Shown here: piece by piece, positions 20,195 through 40,064 of the stretch
Layout: the number at the start of each line of letters is the position of its first letter
Position numbering within the stretch: position 1 is the first letter of the stretch
Source: a virus
IMG/VR virus record: IMGVR_UViG_3300011436_000002
Coordinates: 1-40,697 of that record
DNA length: 40,697 nucleotides
Direction: 5' to 3' (one strand)
Notes under the pieces: generated by a model
What the model saw: only the letters and a program-made list of their open reading frames with translations
What the model was told of the DNA's origin: nothing
Databases searched by the model: none
Made by a program: the position numbers and the translations under genes

Positions 20195-21767
20195 AGTTGT
20201 TTTCACTAAAAGCACGGCTAATATCATACGCATTATCAGAATCGATGACCGGAATTTTATCTCCGGCTGTAACCTCTCCATAAAACGCCCCTGCTCCGCT
20301 ACCCTGCATGGCTAGATCAGCATAAAGATCAGCAAAAACGAAGTGATCAACCCCTGTAGTCGATTCCCATACATATCGCTCAATTCCCTTATTATTCACC
20401 ACTTTTACCCTCCTCAAAGTCTCGTAATGCTTGATGAAATCAGTAAACATTTTGTCCGGCTGAACGCCAATCAAATGCTTTGCCTCGATCATATCCATAA
20501 GATGCCGATCCAAAGCCCGATCTCGGTGAGAATAGACAATTCCCTTCTTGTCGCCCTCACCCCACCATGTGATTAATTGCGGATTATTGGCATTTTCTTG
20601 GAAAAACGACATCATCATGAAGGGATATGTTTCAACGTAATACTTCGACATCGTATTGTCTGGCATGGCATCAATTACCCCGGCTTTCGGCTTATAAAGG
20701 GCCAAAATATCATCCAAATCTTTCCAATCAGTGAATTTCCCGATCTTGATCAGCCCCTTCACTGTCCGGATGACATAATGCTTGATATTTCCCACATCGA
20801 TACCAATGAACCGATCGCCTTCATCGAGGATCTTCGGTGTCCAAATATCGAGGATTGTGGCTTTCGACACAGAAAGATCGCCCGGCGAATAAGGCTTCCC
20901 GAGCACGAAGTTATTGAAGTAGCCCGGATCTCCTTGGCTGTCATCGATGATTTCCTCCGCACTGATCCAAGGGCACATGAGGTGAGAAATGTGATAGCCA
21001 GAGATCTTTGAACCGGGATTTTGAGCCACCCAAATACCTTTTCGCCTCACGTTATCCTCAATCGGCTTCTTACATTCCCGGCAGACGTAACACTTTTTTT
21101 CCATATCAATCGAATGCGGCCACACCAATTCGTGCTTGTCGCCACAATGAGGGCAAGTGATCGTCCATTCTTTCTGATCCGACTTATTCCATGCGAGATC
21201 CAATTCATCACGCTCACCTCCCGGGTTAGAGAAGAGCCATCGGCCCTTGTATTGACTGGCCTTAGTACGAGATTTGTAAGTCTCAATAGCCATCTGATCA
21301 GATCGGCTCACCTCATCGTGCACCAAGAGATCGGCAGTAGTGGAGATCGGGGCAGTTTTAGAAACTGTACCCTTGAAGAAGATGAAGCGGTTGTTTAATT
21401 CTTTTCGCTCGATGTTATCTGTCTCCATACCAAAAAACTCGTGGTAATTCGCTTGGATGATTTTATTCATCTTCGAAGAAACGAACTCCTTCACGTCATC
21501 ATCAGTCGGAAAAGTGTAGATCACATTCAAATGCTGATACTTCACCGCAAAGAGAATCTTGAGTGAGAAGCTGACGGATTTTCCGACCTGTGCACACGCA
21601 CACACTACGATATTTGGGTTCGTATCAGTGAGAATATCCAAGAGAAAAGAGCGATCTCTGAAGTTAAAGATCTCGCCCTTCTCATTCACAATGTTCTCAC
21701 TAACTATCCATTGGAGAATGGAGAAGTATTGTTTGATCTCATCTGGTTTATTCTTCGGTTTTATCAT
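20181..21767 (-). CDS. terL: Large terminase subunit (GpA-like, with zinc ribbon)
   Basis: A 528-residue packaging ATPase and nuclease. Walker A is CACAQVGKS (Lys63), Walker B is LLVHDE (147-152), and a coupling-like segment FSNPGG follows at 179-184. A zinc ribbon with CPHC (205-208) and CYVCREC (226-232) is typical of lambda GpA-like terminases. RNase H-like nuclease motifs are IGIDVGN (Asp324), GVIDAMPD (Asp366) and a late DHFVFADLYADLA. It cuts and translocates phage DNA into the procapsid through the portal. The start overlaps the end of groEL by 20 nt, an unusual coupling of a chaperonin gene to the packaging motor gene. Confidence 0.85.
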   Translation of the reverse strand: MIKPKNKPDEIKQYFSILQWIVSENIVNEKGEIFNFRDRSFLLDILTDTNPNIVVCACAQVGKSVSFSLKILFAVKYQHLNVIYTFPTDDDVKEFVSSKMNKIIQANYHEFFGMETDNIERKELNNRFIFFKGTVSKTAPISTTADLLVHDEVSRSDQMAIETYKSRTKASQYKGRWLFSNPGGERDELDLAWNKSDQKEWTITCPHCGDKHELVWPHSIDMEKKCYVCRECKKPIEDNVRRKGIWVAQNPGSKISGYHISHLMCPWISAEEIIDDSQGDPGYFNNFVLGKPYSPGDLSVSKATILDIWTPKILDEGDRFIGIDVGNIKHYVIRTVKGLIKIGKFTDWKDLDDILALYKPKAGVIDAMPDNTMSKYYVETYPFMMMSFFQENANNPQLITWWGEGDKKGIVYSHRDRALDRHLMDMIEAKHLIGVQPDKMFTDFIKHYETLRRVKVVNNKGIERYVWESTTGVDHFVFADLYADLAMQGSGAGAFYGEVTAGDKIPVIDSDNAYDISRAFSENNYGIE

Positions 21768-23328
21768 CTTCGACTACGATCGCAGTCTCAACATTGATAA
21801 GTGAAGTCGTAATTGCCACAGCACTTTCCAGAGCCAACCGCACAACCTTAAACGGATCGATAATACCGGCTTCGAACATATCTACGACTTCTTTTGTCTT
21901 GAAGTTTAAGCCCATCGAACCTTGAATGTTTTGAGGCATACCAATTGTTTCAATACCTGCATTCCGCATCATCTGGAAGAAAGGAGCAGTCAATGCTCTC
22001 TTGAAAATCACATCATCAGATTTATCGGCGGCATTCATGAGAGCTGTTCCACCACCGGGCAAGATGCCCTCTTGGAGTGCGGCTTGAGTTGCGTTGATTG
22101 CATTCTCAAACTTATATTTCTTGGCGTTGTATTCCGTATCAGTGTACGCACCCACTCGGATCACGCCGATACCTCCGGTAAGCTGTGCTAAACGATCCTC
22201 AAGCTGACCCTTCACGAATTCGCTTGTAGTCTCATCGATCAATTTCTCGATCTCGGCCACTCGTGGAGCAAGGGTATCTTTAGACATTCCCCCGATGATA
22301 GTGGTGTTGTCCCTTGTGATGATGACCTTTTCTGCTCGGCCACACTGATCAATTGTTGCGAGATCAAGTCTCATGCCGGCTTCTTCACTGATAACAGTGC
22401 CACCAGTGAGGGCCGCCATGTCTCGCAAGAAATCTCGGGATGCACTAGCAGTGAAGGGATTTTTTACGCACGCTATGTCATATGTTCCTTGCTTCTGCTG
22501 TCCATCCGGCCCTACGAGCGAAACACTTTTCGAGGCTTGGATGAGTGAAGCAAGAGCAATGCCATCAATATCATCAGCAATGAAGAGCACGGATTTATGG
22601 CCTGTCGATGCGACACTATTCATGATGCTTTTCACTTGATCACCAAGAGAAATCTTCCGATCAACTAGCACAATGTAGGGATTATCGAGCACACATCGAC
22701 CTTGCTCAAAATCATTGGTGAAGTATTGCGAAATCATACCTTTGTCAAATCGTGCACCCTTCACCACTTCTTTCGTATAGCCAATTGCCGATCCTTTCTC
22801 CACTGTTACGACACCATGTACACCTACTTCTCGGATGATTTCTGCAATCATTTTGGCAACCTCTGGATCAAGCGAGGAGATGTTAGCAATTCTTTCAATA
22901 TCAGCATCAGTTACATCTCGTTTGAGCGTAACCAATTCCTCAAGAGTTTTTGATAAACCTTTCTCGAGGCGTTCTCTGACTTCTCGGATTTTACTCGAAT
23001 CATTAGCGATTTCTTTGAAAGCTTCGTGTACCAAGGCTTGAGTAAGAACAGTGGTAGTCGCAGTGCCATCACCGCCTTCAACGGATGTTCGAACCGCCGC
23101 TTTACGAAGTTTCTGAAGTCCCATGTTTTCATAATGGTCTTTGAATTCAAGATTTTTAAGTATTGTTACGCCGTCATCACATTCTATCGGATCAAGGCCT
23201 AGCCATTCGATCATTGCTGTCATACCGACTGGCCCAAGTGTAGGGCGAACAGCATCACACGCACGATCAACGCCTCTTTTAATTTTTACTCGGGCATCAT
23301 GACCCATTGAAATTTCTTTATTTGCCAT
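21748..23328 (-). CDS. groEL: Phage-encoded GroEL chaperonin (catalytic Asp398 position is Asn)
   Basis: A 526-residue group I chaperonin, close to full length (E. coli 548). Visible motifs: VRPTLGPVG near residue 30, CDDGVTIL with Asp52, GGDGTATTTVL with Asp87, apical domain about 190-375, TGGTVISEE at 309-316 and ILPGGG at 422-427. The conserved RVEDALHAT block that holds catalytic Asp398 in E. coli reads KFENAINAT, so the residue is Asn409 (codon AAT). There is a short apical insertion (VGPDGQQKQ) and no C-terminal GGM tail. It presumably folds phage proteins such as the capsid protein. The start overlaps the upstream 93-residue gene by 11 nt, and the GroES-like gene lies just before that. 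Confidence 0.92.
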   Translation of the reverse strand: MANKEISMGHDARVKIKRGVDRACDAVRPTLGPVGMTAMIEWLGLDPIECDDGVTILKNLEFKDHYENMGLQKLRKAAVRTSVEGGDGTATTTVLTQALVHEAFKEIANDSSKIREVRERLEKGLSKTLEELVTLKRDVTDADIERIANISSLDPEVAKMIAEIIREVGVHGVVTVEKGSAIGYTKEVVKGARFDKGMISQYFTNDFEQGRCVLDNPYIVLVDRKISLGDQVKSIMNSVASTGHKSVLFIADDIDGIALASLIQASKSVSLVGPDGQQKQGTYDIACVKNPFTASASRDFLRDMAALTGGTVISEEAGMRLDLATIDQCGRAEKVIITRDNTTIIGGMSKDTLAPRVAEIEKLIDETTSEFVKGQLEDRLAQLTGGIGVIRVGAYTDTEYNAKKYKFENAINATQAALQEGILPGGGTALMNAADKSDDVIFKRALTAPFFQMMRNAGIETIGMPQNIQGSMGLNFKTKEVVDMFEAGIIDPFKVVRLALESAVAITTSLINVETAIVVEDDKTEE

Positions 23329-29242: not shown

Positions 29243-29842
29243 ATGGAACAAACGATGAGATCTTTCAATAATATTCGTCAGTCAAAAGCAGGTGTTCGAC
29301 ATAGGCTCTCATCGGCCTGTTCCAACGGACACCTGCTTTTGCGTGATGAAATATGGAAAGATATTAAGGGATATGAGGGAATGTATCAGATCAGTAATTT
29401 AGGGCGTGTTAAAAGTTTAAAAAGAGGTGGAGTAAGGATATTAAAGTTAAATAAAAAGAAGCGAGGGTACATTGATGTTGTCTTATCTAAAAAAGGGAAT
29501 GTAAAGACTATTAGAGTTCATCGACTTGTTGCTTTAGCTTTTTTGAAAAATAAAAATAAATACCCATGTATTAATCACATAGACAATTGCCCCTCAAACA
29601 ATCAAGTTGTTAATTTGGAATGGACAACTTATCTTAAAAATACTCAACACGCCCTAAGACAAGGGCGAATGACGGGAGCACGAGGAGAAATCCAAACCAC
29701 ATCTAAACTTGTGAAAAAGCAAGTTTTACAAATTCGTAAATTGTCAGGAAAGATTTCTCAAGAAGCAATAGCTAAAAGATACGGAGTATCACGAGGGGCA
29801 ATCACAAGTATCTTGTTAAGAAAAAATTGGAAACACATATGA
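29243..29842 (+). CDS. HNH homing endonuclease with NUMOD4 and HTH (HNH-1)
   Basis: A 199-residue protein. NUMOD4 at about residues 36-60 (EIWKDIKGYEGMYQISNLGR), an HNH_3 domain at 91-135 (VHRLVALAF with His93; CINHIDNCPSNN with His112; NLEW), and a C-terminal helix-turn-helix (ISQEAIAKRYGVSRGAITSI). The first ~33 codons span a long hairpin and may not be translated; a TTG at 29339 is an alternative start. It is more A/T-rich than nearby genes and lies between the origin-like array and the primase gene, overlapping the latter by ATGA. Probably a mobile element gene acting on phage DNA. Confidence 0.8.
   Translation: MEQTMRSFNNIRQSKAGVRHRLSSACSNGHLLLRDEIWKDIKGYEGMYQISNLGRVKSLKRGGVRILKLNKKKRGYIDVVLSKKGNVKTIRVHRLVALAFLKNKNKYPCINHIDNCPSNNQVVNLEWTTYLKNTQHALRQGRMTGARGEIQTTSKLVKKQVLQIRKLSGKISQEAIAKRYGVSRGAITSILLRKNWKHI
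29284..29340 (+). promoter_or_regulatory. Branched hairpin inside the HNH-1 5' region
   Basis: Perfect 12-bp arms (AAAAGCAGGTGT at 29284-29295, ACACCTGCTTTT at 29329-29340) enclose about 33 nt with an inner pairing (AGGC/GCCT). It ends in only four T. It could be a weak terminator, a structured leader, or a fold that controls which start codon is used. Confidence 0.5.
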
Positions 29843-31963: not shown

Positions 31964-32257
31964 ATGAACCTCCTACCAGACATCGATGAGAACGGGCAGT
32001 TAATTTTAGAAAAAGAAGATCGAAAGCTTCTTACAGTTGTGCCTACAATGAGAGAAAGAAGAAGCACCTTGAAACAGAGAATTGAAGAGATTAAGGCTCG
32101 AAAGGTTGATGAGGAGATAAAGAGGTCAGAGGAATTAAATAATGACGGCCATAAAGAAGTTACGCCGGATTTTGAAGATAGTCCTCATGCCGATCGAGTG
32201 CCTTTAGTAGAAGAAAATGAAGAAGCCGAAGAGGAAAAAGAAGATGAAGAAGAATAA
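31964..32257 (+). CDS. Small acidic protein
   Basis: A 97-residue, very charged protein (MNLLPDIDENGQLILEKEDR) with a Glu/Asp-rich tail (VEENEEAEEEKEDEEE). It begins 1 nt after the primase-helicase stop. A replication accessory or DNA-mimic role is possible by charge, but there is no specific evidence. Overlaps HNH-2 by 14 nt. Confidence 0.5.
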   Translation: MNLLPDIDENGQLILEKEDRKLLTVVPTMRERRSTLKQRIEEIKARKVDEEIKRSEELNNDGHKEVTPDFEDSPHADRVPLVEENEEAEEEKEDEEE

Positions 32258-32801
32258 ATCCTATAAAAGAACAGAAGAACATCGTGAGCGAATGAGGATC
32301 ATTTGCACCGGTAGAAAGATGCCTCAATCTATGAAAGATAAAATAAGTAAAATTCATAAAGGTAGAAAACTTTCTGAAAAGCAGAAGAAGGAACATAGTG
32401 AATTTATGAAGAAGAATCCTCCATCTCCTGAAATTATTGCTAATTTAGTTAAACTTAATAAAAGTAAATCAGGTAAAAAACATTGGAATTGGCAAGGAGG
32501 TATTTCAAAGAATAAAAAACATTTAGCTAAAATTTATTCAGCATCTCATCGAAAAAGAATAAATATAAAATTAAAGATAGGAGGATTTCATACTGAAGAA
32601 GAATGGGGTGAATTAAAAAAGATATGTGGTTTTATATGTCTTTGTTGTAAAAGAAAAGAACCAGAAATCAAGCTTTCTAGGGATCATATTATTCCCTTGA
32701 ATAAAAAAGGAAGTGATAATATAGAAAATATTCAACCATTATGTAAATCATGTAATAGTAGGAAACATACTAAAATCATAAAATATGAAAACAAAAAGTA
32801 A
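32244..32801 (+). CDS. HNH homing endonuclease with NUMOD3 motifs (HNH-2)
   Basis: About 185 residues, strongly basic and A/T-rich compared with neighbours. NUMOD3-type segments (KMPQSMKDKISKIHKGRKLS; KSGKKHWNWQGG) are followed by a zinc-bound HNH domain: CLCC (132-135), SRDHIIPL (Asp147-His148), NIENIQPLC, then CKSCN (167-170). The start at 32244 overlaps the upstream stop; 32217 is an alternative. It ends 17 nt inside the following nuclease gene. The codon and base bias suggests later acquisition. Confidence 0.8.
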   Translation: MKKNKSYKRTEEHRERMRIICTGRKMPQSMKDKISKIHKGRKLSEKQKKEHSEFMKKNPPSPEIIANLVKLNKSKSGKKHWNWQGGISKNKKHLAKIYSASHRKRINIKLKIGGFHTEEEWGELKKICGFICLCCKRKEPEIKLSRDHIIPLNKKGSDNIENIQPLCKSCNSRKHTKIIKYENKK

Positions 32802-36947: not shown

Positions 36948-37045
36948 TGCCTACAGCCGGAGAATTCGCAGTGGTTGCACTCATCGGAATTTTTGCTCCG
37001 AAGCTTGCCTTCTTTATTCTGCTAGTAATCATGTTACTCAAATGA
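36944..37045 (+). CDS. Very small hydrophobic membrane peptide
   Basis: A 33-residue peptide that is nearly all hydrophobic after the start (FAVVALIGIFAPKLAFFILL). Two ATG codons in tandem; the first overlaps the previous stop and the end overlaps the next start as ATGA. Function unknown; could be a membrane-active peptide. Confidence 0.45.
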   Translation: MMPTAGEFAVVALIGIFAPKLAFFILLVIMLLK

Positions 37046-37263
37046 AATTAGAATCAGAACAGTTGAAAGAAATAAAAAGTTATGGATGGAAAGAGATCCT
37101 GCCTCAAAAGAACGAATACATGATTTCTTTTGAGAGGGATAATATCCGAGTCAATATCTACCTGACCACTGGCACAGTTACTTTTCAGGATAAGAATTTT
37201 AGATACGATAAGGGGCAAGTGCACAACAACGGATTGGATATTTTAGAAGAAATATTCAAATGA
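37042..37263 (+). CDS. Hypothetical protein
   Basis: A 73-residue protein with a beta-rich centre (YMISFERDNIRVNIYLTTGT) and helical end. It overlaps both neighbours by ATGA. The fold hints at a small alpha/beta protein; no family is recognised. Confidence 0.5.
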   Translation: MKLESEQLKEIKSYGWKEILPQKNEYMISFERDNIRVNIYLTTGTVTFQDKNFRYDKGQVHNNGLDILEEIFK

Positions 37264-37481
37264 AACAGAGAGAAGAGAAAAAGCGAAAATTTGATGAGAT
37301 CATTTCGCAATGCCCGGGATGCAAACTTCTCACGATTTTAACGCCAGATGGTCGAAAGCAATTTGTTTCTACTCACTGCGTCTTTCCGCTTGCCCCGAAG
37401 GAGGAATGCTTCTCATGCAAATCGAAAATACCGAGCAAGCCGCCACGACCAAAAAGAAAAGGGCGAGTACGAAAAGCATGA
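37260..37481 (+). CDS. Small zinc-finger-like basic protein
   Basis: A 73-residue protein with CPGC (residues 18-21) and CFSC (50-53) pairs and a Lys/Arg/Pro-rich tail (KPPRPKRKGRVRKA). Probably binds zinc and nucleic acid. It overlaps the previous gene by ATGA. Function unknown. Confidence 0.5.
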   Translation: MKQREEKKRKFDEIISQCPGCKLLTILTPDGRKQFVSTHCVFPLAPKEECFSCKSKIPSKPPRPKRKGRVRKA

Positions 37482-37496
37482 TACATAGTATAACGG

Positions 37497-37886
37497 ATGA
37501 AGAATGAATTCCTTATGAAGTGCAAAAACCCAAAATGTGAAAATCAGGCCACCACGAAACCTTATGAGAAGGGGCTGTACTGCTCTCCTAAGTGTGTTTT
37601 AGCTGTAGTTCGAACTAGGGAGCATCAGATTAAGGCCGGTAAAGCCGGGGCTAAGGTTAATATTGACCGCTATAGGGGGACAGGAACTAAATCTTATGTA
37701 AAGGAGTTGGGACGGCATCAGCACCGAGTTGTTATGGAGAAAAAACTTGGTAGAAAATTGAGAAAAGGAGAAGTTATTCATCATATTGATAATAATAAAA
37801 AGAATAATGATCTTAAAAATCTTCAAGTAATGACCCAAAGTCAGCACATTAAACTTCATCTAAAACAAAATGGCGGCACTTTATAA
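37497..37886 (+). CDS. HNH homing endonuclease with N-terminal zinc finger (HNH-3)
   Basis: A 129-residue protein: a four-Cys zinc finger (Cys9, 14, 29, 33, in CKNPKCENQ and YCSPKC) and an HNH_3 domain (HQHRVVMEKKLGRKLRKGEV, then HHIDNNKKNNDLKNLQVMT with His95-His96 and Asn103). An internal ATG at 37515 is an alternative start. It ends 17 nt inside the SF2 helicase N-part gene. As with the other HNH genes it is directly upstream of, and overlaps, a replication gene. Confidence 0.78.
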   Translation: MKNEFLMKCKNPKCENQATTKPYEKGLYCSPKCVLAVVRTREHQIKAGKAGAKVNIDRYRGTGTKSYVKELGRHQHRVVMEKKLGRKLRKGEVIHHIDNNKKNNDLKNLQVMTQSQHIKLHLKQNGGTL

Positions 37887-38352
37887 ACACCAGATGGATA
37901 TTGTGAGAGAAGATAAGTCTAAGATCGGCTTATTCCTCGGTACTGGGGCAGGAAAAAGTTTGATCGGGTTATCCCTCGCTCGAGGCTCTACTCTGGTTAT
38001 TTGCCCTAAGACACAGAAGGAAGATCGCAATTGGGAGCGTGAGGCCCAAAGAAATAAGCTTAAAATCGATCTAACAGTAATCAGTAAGGAAGAATTTCGA
38101 AAGAGAGCCTTTGGTCTTAAGCCCTACGACACAGTGATCGTGGATGAGGCCCACACCTGCCTTGGTGTTACCCCAAGCGTTAAATGGGTGAAGAAACAGG
38201 CCGTACCAAAGACTTCACAGCTTTTTGAAGAGCTTTATAAATATATTCAACGAACTAAACCTAAAAGATTGTATCTTTGTACAGCTACAATCATTAGAAG
38301 TCCTATGACTGTTTGGGCGGCTTCAGTTCTTTTAGGAAAAATACCGGCATGA
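37870..38352 (+). CDS. SF2 helicase, N-terminal part (split gene)
   Basis: A 160-residue protein equal to RecA-like domain 1 of an SF2 helicase: Q-like start LYKHQMDIV, motif I GTGAGKS (24-30), motif Ia VICPKTQKEDRNW, motif II VDEAHT (DEAH 92-95), motif III LCTAT (138-140), then RSPMTVWAASVLLGK. The frame stops three codons later, where the HNH-4 ATG overlaps the TGA. The missing domain 2 is encoded in the same frame register downstream of HNH-4. Together they resemble UvsW-type or other phage DEAH helicases; alone this part would bind ATP but not unwind DNA. Confidence 0.8.
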   Translation: MAALYKHQMDIVREDKSKIGLFLGTGAGKSLIGLSLARGSTLVICPKTQKEDRNWEREAQRNKLKIDLTVISKEEFRKRAFGLKPYDTVIVDEAHTCLGVTPSVKWVKKQAVPKTSQLFEELYKYIQRTKPKRLYLCTATIIRSPMTVWAASVLLGKIPA

Positions 38353-38852
38353 AAAAAGTATCTTTAGAAACACGACTTAAAATGAGTAATGCTCAAAAAG
38401 GAAAGAAACGCTCTCCTGAAGCAATAAGGAATTCTGCTATAGCTCACACAAGATTAAAGAGAACTATTGAAACTCGAAAGAAAATGAGTAAGGTTAGGAT
38501 AGGAATGAAATTTTCTAAGGAACATATATTAAATTTAAGTAAATCCCATACTCCGGAACGAAGAAAAAAGGCAAGCCAAATTAGAAAAGGCGAAAGAAGT
38601 CATTTATGGAAAGGAGGAGTGTGTGAGAAACATGAAATTATGAGAAAATCTGTAGAATATTCATTGTGGCGTGAGGCTGTGTTCAAAAGAGATAATTGGA
38701 CTTGTGTGTGGGGCGGAAAAGCTCATGGAAATAAATTACATGCAGATCATATTCAAAAATTTTCTGAATATCCAGAATTAAGATTTGCTATTGATAACGG
38801 AAGGACATTATGCGTAAATTGCCATAAAAAAAGACATGCAAGAATTAGCTAA
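38349..38852 (+). CDS. HNH homing endonuclease splitting the helicase (HNH-4)
   Basis: A 167-residue, basic, A/T-rich protein. NUMOD3-like repeats (LKMSNAQKGKKRSPEAIRNS; KMSKVRIGMKFSKEHILNLS) precede an HNH domain: WTCVWGGKAHGNKLHADHIQ, Asn150, then LCVNCHKK. The usual first CxxC pair reads Cys119-Val-Trp-Gly122, so one zinc ligand is missing (TGC to GGC would be a single change). Its ATG overlaps the stop of helicase part 1 and its end overlaps part 2 by 17 nt, so the insert is essentially only this gene, with no room for an intron RNA. Confidence 0.8.
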   Translation: MKKVSLETRLKMSNAQKGKKRSPEAIRNSAIAHTRLKRTIETRKKMSKVRIGMKFSKEHILNLSKSHTPERRKKASQIRKGERSHLWKGGVCEKHEIMRKSVEYSLWREAVFKRDNWTCVWGGKAHGNKLHADHIQKFSEYPELRFAIDNGRTLCVNCHKKRHARIS

Positions 38853-39621
38853 TTCATTTTATAAGTTCAGGGATAGATTCTATGTTCAGCTCCCCATGCC
38901 GGGACGACAAGTTTTTGCTCCGAAAAAAGATGAAAGCACAAAACAAGCGTTGGCTGATTTAGTAAGACAAATTGGCTATGTAGGCCGGCTCGAGGATTAT
39001 TTTGATGTGCCGGATCAGAATTATAAGACTGTTTATGTCGGTCTTTCGATTGAGCAGAAAGCGAGGATAAAAAGCATGGCTCTCGAGTACCCTGATCCGT
39101 TGGTCAGAGTGGGTAAAATCAACCAGATCGAAAATGGAGTGCTTGCCGGTGATGAGTTCTCTGCTCCGGAGATTTTCGATAATGAAAAAATCGACCTTCT
39201 TTTGGAGTATGCTATCGAGTTTCCTAGGATGGTGATCTTCGCTAAATATACGGCCCAAATCGCCCAGATTGCCACAGCAATGGAAAAAGCCGGCAAAAAG
39301 GTACTTACCCTCACCGGAGCGACAAAAGAGCGTGGTGAGGTCATCAGAGAGGCACAGGAGGCCAAAGAATGCGTGTTTGTGGCCCAAGCACAGATCTCGG
39401 CCGGGTGGGAGCTTCCGGATTACCCGGTGATGGTCTTTGCAAGCCGTACCTACAGCTTTGTCGATTACGATCAGGCTATAGGCAGGATTCAGAGGGCCAA
39501 CAACATCAAAAAGAACCTCTACATAAACCTTGTGGTGAAGGGAGGTGTAGATGAAGCGGTGGATAAGTGTATTAGCATGAAGCAGGACTTTAATGAGAAA
39601 CTATATATAACAACACCATGA
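38836..39621 (+). CDS. SF2 helicase, C-terminal part (split gene)
   Basis: A 261-residue protein equal to helicase domain 2: NSFYKFRDRFYV continues the end of part 1, followed by motif IV-like RMVIFAKYTAQIAQIA, motif V-like VFVAQAQISAGWELP and motif VI DYDQAIGRIQRAN. The start codon ATG (MQELA) appears to have been supplied by the HNH-4 sequence. Joined to part 1 it would give one complete helicase of about 415 residues. The two chains may assemble non-covalently. Confidence 0.8.
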   Translation: MQELANSFYKFRDRFYVQLPMPGRQVFAPKKDESTKQALADLVRQIGYVGRLEDYFDVPDQNYKTVYVGLSIEQKARIKSMALEYPDPLVRVGKINQIENGVLAGDEFSAPEIFDNEKIDLLLEYAIEFPRMVIFAKYTAQIAQIATAMEKAGKKVLTLTGATKERGEVIREAQEAKECVFVAQAQISAGWELPDYPVMVFASRTYSFVDYDQAIGRIQRANNIKKNLYINLVVKGGVDEAVDKCISMKQDFNEKLYITTP

Positions 39622-39674
39622 TTGATGAAGGACTTCCAGAGGGTAAATATCGACTTGAAATCTATGATTGTTAA
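39618..39674 (+). CDS. Possible 18-residue peptide
   Basis: MIDEGLPEGKYRLEIYDC, coupled to the helicase stop by ATGA and ending 6 nt before the resolvase-like gene. The length is too short for confidence; the overlap and protein-like composition are the only support. Confidence 0.3.
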   Translation: MIDEGLPEGKYRLEIYDC

Positions 39675-39680
39675 GACTAA

Positions 39681-40064
39681 ATGAAAAAAAGAGAAGCTGA
39701 TTTTGGAAGGTTGTTTCGACACTGGCTCAAGACCACTGCAATGATCAGTGCCGCTTTTGAATTGAAACAAACAATAAGTAATTCATTACCATTCTCTGAT
39801 GTACAGGAACACCAGATTGATGCCCTTTCTGCGGCCGCTAGTCGCACAGGAATTCTTTTTAAGATTCCGGATGACAGTAGGGGAGTAAAACCTTTCGATT
39901 TTTTCTACCTCCGGCACTCACTGGCCTTTGTGGTCATCAAATATCCAAGGTTTTTTTGCCTGATTGAACTGGAAGCTTTTTTGAGAGAGAAGGAAATAAG
40001 CAAAAGAAAAAGCCTTACCTCTGAAAGAGCCAAGGCCATTTCTTATATAAGCGTATTACTCTGA
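39681..40064 (+). CDS. RecU-like Holliday junction resolvase
   Basis: A 127-residue protein with the phage RecU-like pattern: FGRLFRHWLKT, SAAFELKQTISNSLPFSDVQ (Glu27-x-Lys29), EHQIDALSAAASRTGILFKI, and GVKPFDFFYLR (Asp73), giving a PD-(D/E)XK-type active site. It would cut branched DNA from replication or recombination before packaging. It is the last rightward gene and overlaps the convergent holin-like gene tail to tail by 9 bp. Confidence 0.65.
   Translation: MKKREADFGRLFRHWLKTTAMISAAFELKQTISNSLPFSDVQEHQIDALSAAASRTGILFKIPDDSRGVKPFDFFYLRHSLAFVVIKYPRFFCLIELEAFLREKEISKRKSLTSERAKAISYISVLL

Follow-up and report, generated by a model that had tools for sequence, protein, structure and literature searches.

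A free-standing HNH endonuclease gene lies within an SNF2-like SF2 helicase gene of a phage and divides it into two open reading frames without the loss of a single helicase codon. In the favored interpretation, insertion of the HNH gene split the helicase losslessly, three proteins are made and the two helicase lobes pair into a working ATPase; the probability of this is put at about 0.74. The window, that is, the whole stretch of DNA analyzed, is 40,697 nucleotides long, and the split helicase comes from a single metagenomic contig. The features concerned are as follows.

37497-37886, plus strand: HNH-3, an HNH_3 family gene of 129 aa directly 5′ of helicase part 1
37870-38352, plus strand: helicase part 1, 160 aa, RecA-like lobe 1
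38341-38847, no strand assigned: the insertion, 507 bp, placed by composition and by alignments without gaps, first to 8 and later to 23 uninterrupted relatives
38349-38852, plus strand: HNH-4, a free-standing NUMOD3 + HNH gene of 167 aa, with its TAA stop at 38850-38852
38836-39621, plus strand: helicase part 2, 261 aa, RecA-like lobe 2 with motifs IV-VI
39681-40064, plus strand: a RecU/Holliday-junction-resolvase-like gene downstream of part 2

Together, the two parts are an SF2 (SNF2-like) phage helicase with two RecA lobes and motifs I-VI. Part 1 carries the Walker A sequence GTGAGKS, DEAH and the motif III sequence TAT. Part 2 gives a Helicase_C match (1.4e-08) and contains QAIGRIQR. On the phrog_62 (DNA helicase) profile, part 1 matches positions 697-859 and part 2 positions 871-1132, and an uninterrupted relative matches in one piece at 695-1132. 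The allocation of motifs I-III to part 1 and IV-VI to part 2, as described in an earlier note on this DNA, was seen in the alignments with relatives.

The helicase is one uninterrupted open reading frame in all 24 related viral contigs from IMG/VR (403-455 aa, the 403-aa relative being truncated by its contig end). Eight distinct contigs were found at first and 24 after a profile query had been built from the intact rows. Among distant annotated phage helicases, six of the six examined were likewise encoded by a single gene. The earlier note had allowed that homologues might always consist of two separate genes with no HNH gene between them; these counts show the opposite. Since the relatives are uninterrupted, the split is derived, and among the sampled relatives it was seen only in the present phage. 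The best identity to a relative ranges from 60% (part 1) to 72% (part 2) at the amino acid level. No relative was found in bacterial and archaeal genomes (GTDB). One of the uninterrupted helicases, L013:5974-7272, has GTGSTKT in place of GTGSGKT at Walker A, and its ATPase is possibly weakened.

Comparison with the uninterrupted homologues, which had been suggested as a check, placed the insertion at 38341-38847. Aligned to the intact sequences, the two halves abut with no gap between them (...SPMTVWAASVLLGK/ANSFYKFRDRFY..., where the slash marks the insertion point), and no helicase codons are missing at the junction. The edges of the insert are uncertain by a few nucleotides each, with the length fixed at 507 bp (3 × 169). 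A junction of LLGK/NSFYKFRD had been proposed. Its LLGK edge held, and its right edge had to be moved by one residue to give LLGK/ANSFYKFRD, since LG and FY are separated by four residues in the relatives. The GC content of the insert is 34%, compared with 43% and 46% in the helicase halves. As read from the sequence, chance is not a realistic explanation for two collinear halves of one family that join exactly with no codon lost.

The expectation that the insert would bring new start and stop codons agrees with its anatomy. Part 1 ends in the native LLGK followed by the insert-derived residues IPA and a TGA stop. Part 2 begins with the insert-derived MQEL (ATG CAA GAA TTA) and continues with the native ANSFYKFRD. 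The insert thus gives part 1 its stop and part 2 its ATG, and the stop of HNH-4 comes in turn from helicase sequence, the codons GCT AAT providing its TAA. The open reading frames also bear out the claim that only the HNH-4 gene separates the halves and overlaps both of them, with one refinement: HNH-4 most likely starts at ATG 38349 and not at the upstream TTG 38313 chosen by the ORF finder. This ATG overlaps the TGA of part 1 as ATGA, and the 3′ end of HNH-4 overlaps part 2 by 17 nt.

HNH-4 matches the HNH (3.9e-07) and NUMOD3 (2.3e-05) domains, and its relatives include HNH proteins of Bacillus and Leeuwenhoekiella phages. NUMOD3 lies at residues 14-32 and HNH at residues 136-177, in the numbering of the TTG-started frame. 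With the domains near opposite ends of an open reading frame that occupies about 501 of the 507 nt, the insert is coding throughout. On the catalytic side, D-H ... N and the CxxCH side are retained. The first CxxC, present in most relatives, reads CVWG here. One zinc-ligand cysteine is therefore seemingly lost, and the endonuclease activity of HNH-4 may be weak or absent.

Both halves of the helicase are well preserved. Of the alignment columns in which conservation across the 23 relatives reaches 95% or more, 38 of 40 are kept in part 1 and all 62 in part 2. The two changed columns in part 1 are a T to S change in Walker A and an A to G change, and this retention falls within the range of the intact relatives. 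Neither half has a frameshift, a premature stop or a broken motif. The insertion point is a loop whose length differs by 0-6 residues across the relatives. In an AlphaFold model of the 417-aa helicase of the intact relative G001 (mean pLDDT 87.5, pTM 0.54, 25-row alignment), the site is a coil between helices 149-158 and 165-172. The model places it past the motif III strand (137-142) and far ahead of the second RecA lobe, which starts from about residue 274, so that each half holds one RecA lobe. The best Foldseek matches of the model are SNF2-family remodellers (E 3e-17).

The main rival to the favored interpretation is that the insertion inactivated the helicase. The open reading frames would then be remnants that have not yet decayed, the enzyme being dispensable or a host helicase being used instead. 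Insertions of homing endonuclease genes (HEGs) are under no selection to spare host function, and a split that occurs in one contig alone, with no empty-site sister, may be very recent. No empty site turned up in a phage closely related to this one, the nearest relative sharing 60-72% amino acid identity. The insertion is consequently undatable, and a gene inactivated by a recent insertion would look identical. Nevertheless, the preserved columns and frames, the start codon of part 2 and the tolerant loop at the site all speak against inactivation, which is considered unlikely. The same preservation suggests that helicase function is retained.

An assembly chimera, in which the HNH gene of a different phage was wrongly joined into the helicase, is conceivable for a single metagenomic contig. 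However, such an error is not expected to leave both junctions exact and free of codon loss, with starts and stops coupled. Moreover, the gene order near the helicase resembles that of a relative: G001 has a homologue of the RecU/Holliday-junction-resolvase-like gene on the same side of its helicase, with 60% identity. A chimera is thus very unlikely. The phage also encodes a GroEL-like chaperonin (21748-23328, minus strand; phrog_5725, E 1e-113), of which G001 has a divergent homologue with 26% identity.

It is scarcely credible that the HNH gene is housed in a group I (or II) intron that is very small or degenerate and that the helicase mRNA is spliced. HNH endonucleases are often carried in phage group I introns (PMC7344957), and the length of the insert is a multiple of three. 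The argument from reading frame against an intron was dropped, as 26 U...G pairs keep a frame open (e.g. 38350/38848, giving LLGKIPASNSFYKF), and what speaks against an intron is consequently the lack of a core. Rfam matched no group I, group II or other intron, the Intron_gpI core included, whether at gathering thresholds across the whole window or at E values up to 5 in 37000-40000. A group II 5′ GUGYG is absent near the insert edge. The HNH-4 coding sequence leaves no space for a core, in agreement with the earlier note, which had seen no room for a group I intron and no continuous frame for an intein. Inteins occur frequently in helicases, and there are known cases of split inteins that have an endonuclease gene between their pieces. 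Rejoining of the halves as protein by an intein or split intein (a ‘fractured gene’) is nevertheless a negligible prospect here, unless such pieces are encoded elsewhere. Stop codons are numerous in the reading frame that leads from part 1 into part 2, and the only residues gained, IPA and MQEL, are too short for N- and C-intein pieces, which rejects cis and split inteins alike.

Splitting by lossless insertion would have proceeded as follows. In a tailed phage, a free-standing HNH homing endonuclease gene entered the SNF2-like SF2 helicase gene, which was then intact, probably directly after LLGK. The ATG of the insert itself, in the ATGA shared with the TGA that ends the N-terminal half, would start HNH-4, and the ATG near the 3′ end of the insert would restart the C-terminal half in frame. 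Ribosomes would probably read the operon by termination-reinitiation to give three separate proteins, and the two lobes would then reassociate non-covalently into a working ATPase. Part 2 could be translated only through the ATG of the insert, so that loss or shift of HNH-4 would cost the phage its helicase. Such dependence would favor retention of the element.

The start of part 1 has a similar layout. Its start codon lies 17 nt ahead of the end of HNH-3, just as the start codon of part 2 lies 17 nt ahead of the end of HNH-4, and the TAA of HNH-3 sits in the helicase codons CTT TAT AAA. HNH-3 probably replaced the native helicase start, because relatives begin with M-x-L-[YF]-x-HQ and the split helicase with MAALYKHQ. 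Counting HNH-3, the phage has three further HNH genes (29243-29842, 32217-32801 and 37497-37886), which overlap a downstream ATG by 4, 17 and 17 nt, respectively. Their targets are a primase (29839), an exonuclease-like gene (32785) and the helicase, and homologues of all three targets are present in G001. Tentatively, synthesis of the whole motor might depend on reinitiation after two unrelated HNH genes in a two-HEG operon, the SF2 motor being a natural heterodimer. If this were true, both endonucleases would be hard to lose.

A 17-nt overlap with the next gene is shared by HNH-2, HNH-3, HNH-4 and an HNH gene of a related phage, L016. The last of these, an HNH_3-type gene at L016:3800-4201, overlaps the start of a gene that by eye resembles a fragment of a C5 DNA methyltransferase. 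A 17-nt restart is not a general rule, as the HNH genes scored in other relatives vary (8 nt is commonest, with 4, 11, 17 or gaps). Overlap restarts are common among related HNH genes, with varied lengths. Other HNH relatives were inspected by eye as possible gene splitters, and the open reading frames that flank them look like separate genes. Translation can be coupled across overlaps, and overlapping gene pairs are enriched for subunits of one complex (PMC10666635). No Shine-Dalgarno-like site precedes part 2, nor most genes of the phage, and its absence is uninformative on coupling. The scarcity of such sites suggests a host with leaderless or Shine-Dalgarno-independent initiation.

Few HEG-split genes are documented, and among the splits ascribed to HEG insertion full function has been shown only for nrdA of Aeromonas phage Aeh1. 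No helicase turned up in a literature search, although this does not prove that none exists; helicases are apparently a new target class for genes in pieces made by HEGs. If the present enzyme is functional, a motor cut between its RecA lobes would mean that an SF2 helicase can act as two polypeptides, and the cut site could serve as a naturally occurring split point in engineering or in studies of lobe-lobe coupling. More generally, free-standing endonucleases with their own stop and start codons could make two subunits from one gene in a single step.

The closest parallel is the nrdA-a/mobE/nrdA-b arrangement of Aeh1, in which the two halves form a functional ribonucleotide reductase (Friedrich et al. 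2007; Gibb & Edgell 2007; reviewed in PMC2988022). In both cases a free-standing HNH gene sits in a conserved phage enzyme gene, which yields two polypeptides with no splicing element. The intact homologues, the lossless junction, the HNH-only insert and the kept motifs agree with the earlier note in its proposal of an Aeh1 nrdA-like gene in pieces, in which the mRNA is probably not spliced and the parts probably reassemble. In contrast to Aeh1, the target here is an SNF2-like SF2 helicase and not a ribonucleotide reductase, HNH-4 is of the NUMOD3-HNH type and the joint function of the halves is a prediction.

The topoisomerase genes 39 and 60 of T4 stem from a single ancestral replication gene and likewise flank an HNH endonuclease gene, mobA (PMC2988022). 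The enzyme is a different one, and the present split falls between the two lobes of a motor. In Aeromonas phage 25, gp43A and gp43B co-purify with polymerase activity (PMC2988022). This seg43-type insertion resembles the present case as a replication enzyme in two pieces beside a free-standing HEG (PMC2988022). However, the HEG of phage 25 is of the GIY-YIG type and may have entered a gene that was already split, whereas here the gene is an HNH and the uninterrupted relatives argue that its insertion made the split. The phrog_62/SNF2-like helicases of Thermoanaerobacterium phage THSA-485A and Faecalibacterium phage FP_Epona share the family, the motifs and the length class of the split helicase but, unlike it, are uninterrupted.
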